From Natrinema caseinilyticum (lineage in GTDB: Archaea; Halobacteriota; Halobacteria; Halobacteriales; Natrialbaceae): a stretch of DNA of 64,000 nucleotides. The notes under the pieces are model-generated. The model saw nothing but the letters and a program-made list of their open reading frames with translations, had not been told where the DNA came from and ran no database searches. The stretch is from NCBI RefSeq assembly GCF_024227435.1, contig NZ_CP100445.1:1919369-1983368 (forward strand), given 5' to 3'. A program made the translations under genes and the position numbers. Below are positions 24,255 through 26,266 of this stretch, piece by piece (positions within the stretch are counted from its first letter, which is position 1; every line of letters begins with the position of its first letter).

Positions 24255-24443
24255 ATGGACGATAGTTCCGACACGCAGTCTTCAACCCCCCCGCGAACGC
24301 GACCGCCGCTGCCCGCCGAGAACGTGATGATTACTGACACGTACCGTCGCGAAGACGAGGTGTGGTTCGTCGTGACCAGCATGTCGACGCCGCTGGTCGA
24401 ATTCCACGTGCGCGAGGACGTCATCGAACCGATCGAGGGATGA
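24255..24443 (+). CDS. small acidic hypothetical protein
   Basis: A 62-aa frame, MDDSSDTQSSTPPRTRPPLP then ENVMITDTYRREDEVWFVVTSM and PLVEFHVREDVIEPIEG. The second half has a halophile-like acidic composition and alternating strands, which favours a real gene over the competing reverse-strand frame, which is Arg/Ser-rich. It is not a family I recognise. The 255-bp gap before it (24000-24254) and the 289-bp gap after it show no other supported gene. Confidence 0.6.
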   Translation: MDDSSDTQSSTPPRTRPPLPAENVMITDTYRREDEVWFVVTSMSTPLVEFHVREDVIEPIEG

Positions 24444-24732: not shown

Positions 24733-26004
24733 ATGCCACAGATACGAACGATGGAAATTCCAGAATCGGTCCGCGAAGAACTGGAATCAACCGAAAACGT
24801 AACCGGAACGGCGTTCGGGCTGAAACAGACTCGGGAAGAGGGAATTACGGATACAGAAGCCATCGTCGTTTACGTCGACGAGAAACGACCCGAACAGGAT
24901 CTTGCCGACGAGGAAATCCTGCCCACGGAACTCGAAATCGAGGACGAGACCTACAAGGTCGACGTCCAGGAGTCGGGAGACGTGAAGATGCTCGAGCAGG
25001 CGATGCGCCCGACGGAACCGCCGATGGAGATCGCCGAAGCGGAACCGGAACTCGAGGCGATCCCGCCGGGCCTCTCCCGAAAGGAGAAGTGGCGGCCGGC
25101 GCCGGCCGGCGTCTCCGTGGGCCACCCGGACGTGACAGCGGGGACACTCGGGACGCCACCGTTGCGAACGGCAGACGGCCGAACCGTTTTCCTCACGAAC
25201 TCGCACGTGGCTGCGGATAGCGGGGACGCGAGCCAGGGCGACGACGTGTACCAGCCCGGCACCTACGATGGCGGGAGTGCGAACGACGTGATCGGAACCC
25301 TGATCGACTTCAGCGAAATTTCGACGAGCGAGAACAACACTACCGACAGCGCCCTCGTCGAGGTTCGCCCGGATCACCTCCAGTCGGACATCTTCGAAGT
25401 CGAGTCGGACCTGCGATCGTTTACCGACGCCGAAATCGGACAACGACACACGAAAAGCGGCCGAACGACCTCTGTGACGACCGGCAAGTGCACCGCGCGA
25501 AACGCCACGTTCAACGTGGGTTTCAAACACGGAACCGCGAAGTTCGTCGGGCTCGACGTCTTCGAGCCGATCGCGTCCGGCGGAGACAGCGGGAGCCTCA
25601 TCGGTCTCGAGCGATCCGACGGATTCTACGGCACGACCCTCCTGTTCGCCGGGAGTAGCAGCCTGACGCTCGGGATCCCGATGGACGCCGTCCAGCAGTT
25701 CCACGGCCAACTCGAGCCGATGACCGGACGGGAGCTGGTCGATCCGGACGACCTGCGGATCACGGGGACCGCGTTCTCGACGAGTCTCAACGGCGGACAG
25801 ACGACCGCCCGATGGAGCGGCCCCTGGAACGACCGTTACAGCGTCGACTTCAGGGCCATCCCGACCACGACGGACGGATGGGTGAGCAGTTCGATCGAGT
25901 CGGTGTACAGGACGAACAGCGGCGTCTATTACCGAATCCACATGGAGAACAGGCGATCCAATGCACCGGTGGACTGTGACGTCAAATACGTCGTCAGACG
26001 GTAG
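24733..26004 (+). CDS. trypsin-like (S1-fold) serine protease without signal peptide
   Basis: A 423-aa protein. Residues 20-90 form a small N-terminal domain (VTGTAFGLKQTREEG..., AIVVYVDEKRPEQDL, YKVDVQESGDV). Residues 125-330 carry a chymotrypsin-type catalytic core with all three triad positions: His158 in FLTNSHVAADSGD, Asp205 in NTTDSALVEV and Ser286 in ASGGDSGSLIG. Residues 345-423 add a C-terminal strand-rich domain with several Trp and Tyr. No Sec or Tat signal and no membrane helix is present, so it should act in the cytosol. The layout resembles bacterial and plant NAL1-like proteases rather than secreted halolysins. An 83-aa gene follows after 10 bases. Confidence 0.85.
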   Translation: MPQIRTMEIPESVREELESTENVTGTAFGLKQTREEGITDTEAIVVYVDEKRPEQDLADEEILPTELEIEDETYKVDVQESGDVKMLEQAMRPTEPPMEIAEAEPELEAIPPGLSRKEKWRPAPAGVSVGHPDVTAGTLGTPPLRTADGRTVFLTNSHVAADSGDASQGDDVYQPGTYDGGSANDVIGTLIDFSEISTSENNTTDSALVEVRPDHLQSDIFEVESDLRSFTDAEIGQRHTKSGRTTSVTTGKCTARNATFNVGFKHGTAKFVGLDVFEPIASGGDSGSLIGLERSDGFYGTTLLFAGSSSLTLGIPMDAVQQFHGQLEPMTGRELVDPDDLRITGTAFSTSLNGGQTTARWSGPWNDRYSVDFRAIPTTTDGWVSSSIESVYRTNSGVYYRIHMENRRSNAPVDCDVKYVVRR

Positions 26005-26014
26005 TGATCACACG

Positions 26015-26266
26015 ATGGAAATAACGATCACGACCCAGGATCCGGAAGACGTCGACGTCGTCACCGAGACGACCGGGTCGGAGCGGGGCCACGCCACCGC
26101 CCGGCCGCCGGAGGAGGCGCCGTCGGAAACCGTCGTGTCGCCGCCCGCGCGATATCAACCGCAGCAGCAGCAACTGACGATCGCTGTCGAGTCCGAACTT
26201 TCCACCGGAGAGGGAACCGATGTCGTCGGCCCGCCATCGGAATTCGGCCCACCCGGTTCGTGGTAG
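26015..26266 (+). CDS. small Pro/Gln-rich protein paired with the serine protease
   Basis: An 83-aa acidic, low-complexity protein: MEITITTQDPEDVDVVTETT at the start, then a Pro/Glu stretch, a run QPQQQQ and the end PPSEFGPPGSW. It begins 10 bases after the protease stop, so the two are almost certainly co-transcribed. No known family. Its disordered composition would suit a substrate, inhibitor or adaptor of the protease, but that is only inference. The 259-bp gap after it (26267-26525) shows no gene. Confidence 0.6.
   Translation: MEITITTQDPEDVDVVTETTGSERGHATARPPEEAPSETVVSPPARYQPQQQQLTIAVESELSTGEGTDVVGPPSEFGPPGSW

Follow-up and report, generated by a model that had tools for sequence, protein, structure and literature searches.

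A conserved pair of genes for a NAL1-like serine protease and a small Pro/Gln-rich protein in haloarchaea

Structures of the plant serine protease NAL1 (PDB 7y77, 8has, 8hau, 8pn2 and others; Pfam PF25608 NAL1_N and PF25819 Nal1_C) contain an N-terminal domain leading into an S1-fold protease domain, and they display an oligomeric assembly. NAL1 degrades TOPLESS-type corepressors in plants, and it has been termed a plant-specific serine protease in a recent paper (PMC12915138). Trypsin-fold cytosolic proteases are also found in conserved two-gene pairs in bacteria, where antiviral nuclease-protease pairs comprise an upstream MBL-fold pro-nuclease and a protease fused to a defence protein (PMC12799240). 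A literature text search (of partial coverage, and weak as evidence) turned up no account of any NAL1-like protease from archaea, nor of the gene pair which is the subject of this report.

Gene layout and the protease

The window, a stretch of 64,000 nucleotides from Natrinema caseinilyticum (contig NZ_CP100445.1), had been predicted to contain a 423-aa protease and an 83-aa disordered protein encoded 10 bases apart, and this observation was confirmed: both ORFs are present on the same strand with 10 bp between the protease stop and the partner ORF, and they are probably carried on one transcript. The protease may start at 24733 or at a second Met at 24751. The features of the pair and of the protease are:

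24733..26004, forward strand, stop included: NAL1-like serine protease, 423 aa, with N-domain, S1/PA protease domain and C-terminal beta domain
26015..26266, forward strand, stop included: disordered Pro/Gln-rich partner gene, 83 aa, seven further genomes having a homologous small gene in the corresponding position
24754..24987, forward strand: N-terminal NAL1_N-like domain (Pfam), about aa 8-85, conserved in bacterial and viral homologues
25204..25206, forward strand: codon of catalytic His158, aligning with N-[HR]-H-V of NAL1
25345..25347, forward strand: codon of catalytic Asp205, aligning with R-A-D-G-A of NAL1
25588..25590, forward strand: codon of catalytic Ser286 (GGDSGS), aligning with E-G-D-S-G-S-L of NAL1
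25759..26001, forward strand: C-terminal beta domain, aa 343-423 (WSGPW...VDF...P...YY...N; profile A5)

The order of genes in the window is glutamine synthetase (reverse strand), Lrp-type regulator (forward), a 62-aa gene (forward), the pair (forward) and thermosome (reverse), the neighbours being named from their translations, and because glutamine synthetase, the regulator and the thermosome immediately surround the pair, the stretch is not gene-poor as had been supposed. The 62-aa gene (24255-24443) is retained in the three Natrinema species which have the pair, with a gene of similar sequence near the pair of another genome (G481; L145:6981-7142), and it possibly belongs to a common haloarchaeal small family.

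His158, Asp205 and Ser286 lie where the original prediction placed them, are invariant in 27 of 27 aligned homologues and fall by alignment on the NAL1 triad (residues 234, 291 and 385, as counted by hand along the alignment with the offset of the full-length chain). As in S1/PA-fold proteases, the triad residues come in the order H, D and S and a GDSG-type motif is present, on alignment to NAL1 and streptogrisin structures. When a family profile (A4) of eight archaeal, bacterial and viral relatives was compared with the PDB, all nine NAL1 sequences came top (best 7y77, E=1.5e-19), followed by streptogrisins and alpha-lytic proteases, with the NAL1 alignment spanning both the N-domain and the protease domain. 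The 423-aa ORF is thus, as judged by profile comparison, an S1/PA-fold serine protease and a relative of NAL1, agreeing with the suggestion that its nearest plan was the NAL1-like group. The window protein itself scored under the curated Pfam cut-offs both for NAL1_N (E=3.5e-5, 23.9 of 27 bits) and for Nal1_C (E=0.0065, 16.1 of 26.1 bits), which is why we call it NAL1-like and not NAL1; a Rubrobacter relative clears Nal1_C with 27.1 bits. A full-length AlphaFold2 model of the protease, made from three sequences only, was uninformative (pLDDT 31); a double beta-barrel that brings the triad together in space has indirect support from the homology to the solved NAL1 structures.

The description trypsin-like holds for the fold and fails for S1A Arg/Lys specificity. 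The counterpart of trypsin Asp189, assuming no gap between it and the catalytic Ser, is I280, and this position is Ile, Met, Leu, Phe or Tyr across all 27 homologues and never acidic, therefore Arg/Lys specificity is not expected; an S1 pocket of this kind, without an acidic residue, would favour cleavage after small or hydrophobic residues.

The N-terminus of the protease is not hydrophobic (maximum 15-residue hydropathy of the N-terminal part -0.09), and it has neither a signal peptide nor an RR motif, so that its proposed cytosolic location stands, an intracellular enzyme being supported by the absent signal. More distant haloarchaeal relatives (L116, L117 and the second gene in L042) carry twin-Arg-type N-termini, so the absence is a real difference of the clade to which the window protease belongs. 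The protease gene is under selection in the three Natrinema species (dN/dS 0.11-0.13), and the first idea that such enzymes are rare in archaea is not supported, a relative being found in 46 of 391 Halobacteria.

Several other homologues were noted. A second haloarchaeal NAL1-like S1 protease lies at a conserved place beside an apparent thiC (identified by eye) in many Natrialbaceae (L038, L039, L041, L043, L045), and in another genome (G103) a 1106-codon frame has the NAL1-like protease fused to a long C-terminal part (L040:4974-8294). The 'putative serine protease' of Aeropyrum coil-shaped virus (L057:3001-3981) belongs to the NAL1-like family, with a Pfam NAL1_N match below cut-off (E=2.6e-5). 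Scanning of viral contigs gave one distant homologue (L064/L134), in which the NAL1-like protease forms the N-terminus of a frame of about 1280 codons beside Ser/Thr-rich repeat proteins (IMG/VR contig, L064:2974-6816).

The partner gene and its retention beside the protease

The 83-aa partner ORF is a real gene. It is kept in two sister Natrinema species, at 76% identity in N. hispanicum and 52% in the third species, with dN/dS values of 0.34, 0.42 and 0.61 indicating purifying selection; its indels among Natrinema are of whole codons, its similarity starts at the ATG and the short gap upstream of that ATG varies among species, and a codon-usage gene caller independently recovers it. The charge-hydropathy test predicts that the protein is disordered, as the original prediction had claimed. 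Its two ends are the best-conserved parts and it contains three short features:

26015..26062, forward strand: partner N-terminus (MEITITTQDPEDVDVV), strand-like, with the pattern M-[EQR]-[ILV]-[TS]-[IF]-[TN] in short partners (alignment A6)
26144..26155, forward strand: motif 1, P-A-R-Y of SPPARYQP, matching P-x-[EQRA]-[FY]
26234..26245, forward strand: motif 2, P-S-E-F of GPPSEFGP, matching P-x-[EQRA]-[FY]

The P-x-[EQRA]-[FY] motif occurs exactly twice in 6 of 7 distinct partners, that of G328 being without the motif pair, and five partners hold 8 copies compared to 0.71 expected by shuffling, a probability value which is to be discounted because the motif was defined post hoc on largely the same sequences. 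A partner profile found no second copy elsewhere in the pair genomes, and matches of a 3-row partner profile outside the pair loci (E 0.005-0.1) were judged from their weak scores to be chance.

To follow the pair across haloarchaea, 391 Halobacteria were scanned and the flanks of homologues inspected. Every genome with an intact protease carrying the C-domain had, in the same orientation and 5-11 bp further downstream, a Pro-rich gene (8/8; three Natrinema species, G202, G184, G275, G328 and G481, in four haloarchaeal families), supporting a conserved two-gene unit that is genuinely kept together. Both outcomes that might have overturned the original prediction went in its favour: the small gene is kept in 8 of 8 homologues of the same architecture, and the triad agrees with that of NAL1. 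In G202, G184, G275 and G328, which belong to three further families, the partner is small, acidic and Pro-rich with a strand-like segment at its start. The G481 pair was found after the pair rule had been noted, which makes it a prospective test, if a small one. The G481 partner is longer (271 aa), starts without the strand-like segment, and consists of a Gln/Pro-rich low-complexity stretch with a near-identical copy of the protease's own C-domain. No partner was found beside nine inspected homologues which have other tails in place of the C-domain (Gly-rich in four of them, L107, L108, L110 and L113), nor beside six inspected paralogues of the thiC type; among the loci inspected the partner gene is therefore confined to proteases with the C-terminal beta domain.

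The C-domain proteases form one clade in a 27-row tree (support 88/99) in which four haloarchaeal families are intermixed, and this points to horizontal movement of the pair between families. No neighbour was common to the pair loci inspected, which lie in several unrelated neighbourhoods. In the other Natrinema genomes inspected the gap between regulator and thermosome is 240-550 bp or holds unrelated inserts, and one of them (G054) has a decayed protease fragment in the same place beside the thermosome (L036:4992-5287); the pair is thus an insert in a variable site. As the pair loci all fall in one clade, C-domain and partner may occur together because of a single ancestral association and not a repeated functional need. 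The interpretation first placed on the locus is thus partly supported, in that the NAL1-like plan, the cytosolic location and the conserved pair stood, and rarity and the gene-poor stretch did not.

Small genes beside two bacterial homologues were considered as likenesses of the window partner and rejected. In Rubrobacter radiotolerans plasmid 2 (L055:3815-5126) the NAL1-like protease is followed by a 77-aa lone copy of its own N-domain (E=1e-5), possibly a trans-acting regulator of another design, and the small Rhizobium neighbour has no convincing similarity to its protease.

The C-terminal domain on two protease folds

A model of the C-domain from two sequences (pLDDT 68) is six-stranded and all-beta. 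Foldseek gave no match for it at E<=0.001 (PDB, viral), VIA-align gave nothing above Z 4.7 (pallilysin), and the sequence had nothing credible in the PDB, so with no confident structural match to hint at what the domain binds we claim no fold name. Pfam matches to Peptidase_A4, ChitinaseA_N and GBS_Bsp-like were below cut-off and mutually discordant, and are taken only as 'beta-sandwich-like'.

In the Halobacteria searched, profile A5 matches only the window protease clade and subtilisin-like (S8) proteases of Haloferax. The latter are signal-less, end in the C-domain of the window protease and have behind them, after about 60 bp, an 84-aa gene which is the C-domain alone. Their loci are:

L128:3525-5572: Haloferax S8 protease with C-domain
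L129:4989-7034: Haloferax S8 protease with C-domain
L130:6001-8048: Haloferax S8 protease with C-domain

The slot after the protease is thus occupied by a disordered Pro-rich protein, by a Gln/Pro stretch with a C-domain (G481), or by a lone C-domain (Haloferax). Also inside the C-domain clade are two Natronococcus loci whose C-domain is divergent and which have no partner gene; one is frameshifted, and in the intact one (L034) protease and C-domain are joined in cis by a long linker rich in Gln and Pro. The simplest reading of these variants, from the sequences, is that the disordered stretch works as a single unit with the C-domain, most likely through binding.

Explanations of the pair and comparison with known systems

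We tentatively favour the explanation that this is a mobile two-gene unit in which an intracellular NAL1-like protease is tethered or regulated by a disordered partner docking on its C-domain. The protease, by its sequence, should be catalytically competent. The partner would dock on the C-domain through its N-terminal strand, its two P-x-[EQRA]-[FY] motifs or both, and might serve as a bivalent tether or adaptor, localising the protease, bringing protease molecules together or feeding them substrate. A wider proposal, which we regard as possible and rather doubtful, is that the C-domain with a Pro/Gln-rich partner is a portable assembly module used by two cytosolic serine proteases unrelated to each other, one NAL1-like (S1) and one subtilisin-like (S8). 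These would make up an undescribed class of scaffolded protease inside the cell, whose place and time of action would be set by a disordered bivalent partner supplied either in trans or in cis.

Tight two-gene operons, patchy and horizontally moved with one decayed copy (G054), would also be expected if the partner were a dedicated inhibitor or antitoxin that restrains a potentially self-damaging cytosolic protease for as long as it escapes degradation itself, and the partner is small, acidic and disordered with a dN/dS three to five times that of the protease; the lone N-domain copy downstream of the Rubrobacter protease is likewise what a trans-acting propeptide-like inhibitor could be. We consider this unlikely. 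Antitoxin genes are usually first in their operons and the partner gene is downstream, and neither Natronococcus nor any clade lacking the C-domain has the partner while their proteases keep an intact triad, so that the protease is not evidently toxic alone. PADLOC had no match for either protein, counting against this idea too, and a reading of the pair as a defence system was rejected on the same result. That the partner is instead a substrate, cut to free a short peptide as a signal or structural piece, would suit a disordered and accessible protein that has conserved ends and two sites of conserved small/hydrophobic and aromatic residues. It seems to us a poor prospect, as the G481 and Haloferax partners are partly or wholly a folded copy of the protease C-domain, which fits binding better than cutting, and the partner lacks the secretion signal that a signal-peptide role would call for.

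The appearance of the C-domain as a portable add-on to an unrelated subtilisin-like protease also fits an anchoring role, in which C-domain and partner would hold the protease on a polymer granule or a structure of the cell, its proteolysis serving turnover there; the Gln/Pro-rich tract resembles, by analogy, scaffold-forming low-complexity regions, and the next gene in Natronococcus reads, by eye, as a PHB-depolymerase-type esterase. This is improbable given that the inspected pair loci have no common neighbour and that the C-domain fold searches gave no carbohydrate- or polymer-binding match. It is very improbable indeed that the small gene is an independent hitch-hiking reading frame, inherited beside the protease by chance. 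A single historical event could explain linkage within one clade, but the linkage has outlasted horizontal moves among four families into different neighbourhoods at a spacing of 5-11 bp, the partner shows purifying selection and in-frame indels, its profile finds no second copy, and related systems carry C-domain copies in their partners.

If the module proposed above did move between two protease folds, it would be a new form of regulation of cytosolic proteolysis in archaea. Specific predictions that can be tested follow from the shared C-domain and from the partner with its double motif, and the simple archaeal version, with two genes and a disordered partner that is conserved, offers a tractable system for the selectivity of NAL1-type proteases inside cells. 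The NAL1 plan of N-domain plus protease extends across haloarchaea and bacteria and to an archaeal virus, although NAL1 has been called plant-specific (PMC12915138).

Set against known systems, the bacterial antiviral pairs (PMC12799240) are alike in having a trypsin-fold cytosolic protease in a conserved two-gene pair, but the window partner is small, disordered and downstream, and upstream of the window protease there is the 62-aa gene and then the Lrp-type regulator in place of a pro-nuclease. The S8 peptidase of Haloferax mediterranei pHME505 (WP_014732744.1) with the hypothetical protein WP_004061042.1 has the same C-domain, no signal and a small gene downstream; its catalytic domain is subtilisin-like and unrelated to the S1 domain of the window protease, and WP_004061042.1 is the C-domain itself and not a disordered Pro-rich protein. 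The thiC-linked haloarchaeal S1 paralogues (e.g. L038, L039, L041, L043) have the NAL1-like N-domain, protease and triad and are 33-38% identical to the window protease, but without such a C-domain or partner. Viral PHROG 20754 ('protease') matches over aa 8-320 (E=3.7e-33) with the same N-domain and protease, and the Aeropyrum coil-shaped virus enzyme is a homologue of this kind without the C-domain; no Pro-rich partner with P-x-[EQRA]-[FY] motifs was found in viral neighbourhoods of the PHROG 20754 type. NAL1 shares with the window protease the N-domain leading into an S1-fold protease, the aligned triad and an intracellular location, whereas the window protein differs in its C-terminal beta domain and in having a partner gene, and the TOPLESS substrates of NAL1 are plant proteins (PMC12915138) for which there is no evidence here. 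The protease is therefore of the known NAL1-like kind and its partner of an undescribed type, and the pair looks like an undescribed two-part protease system.
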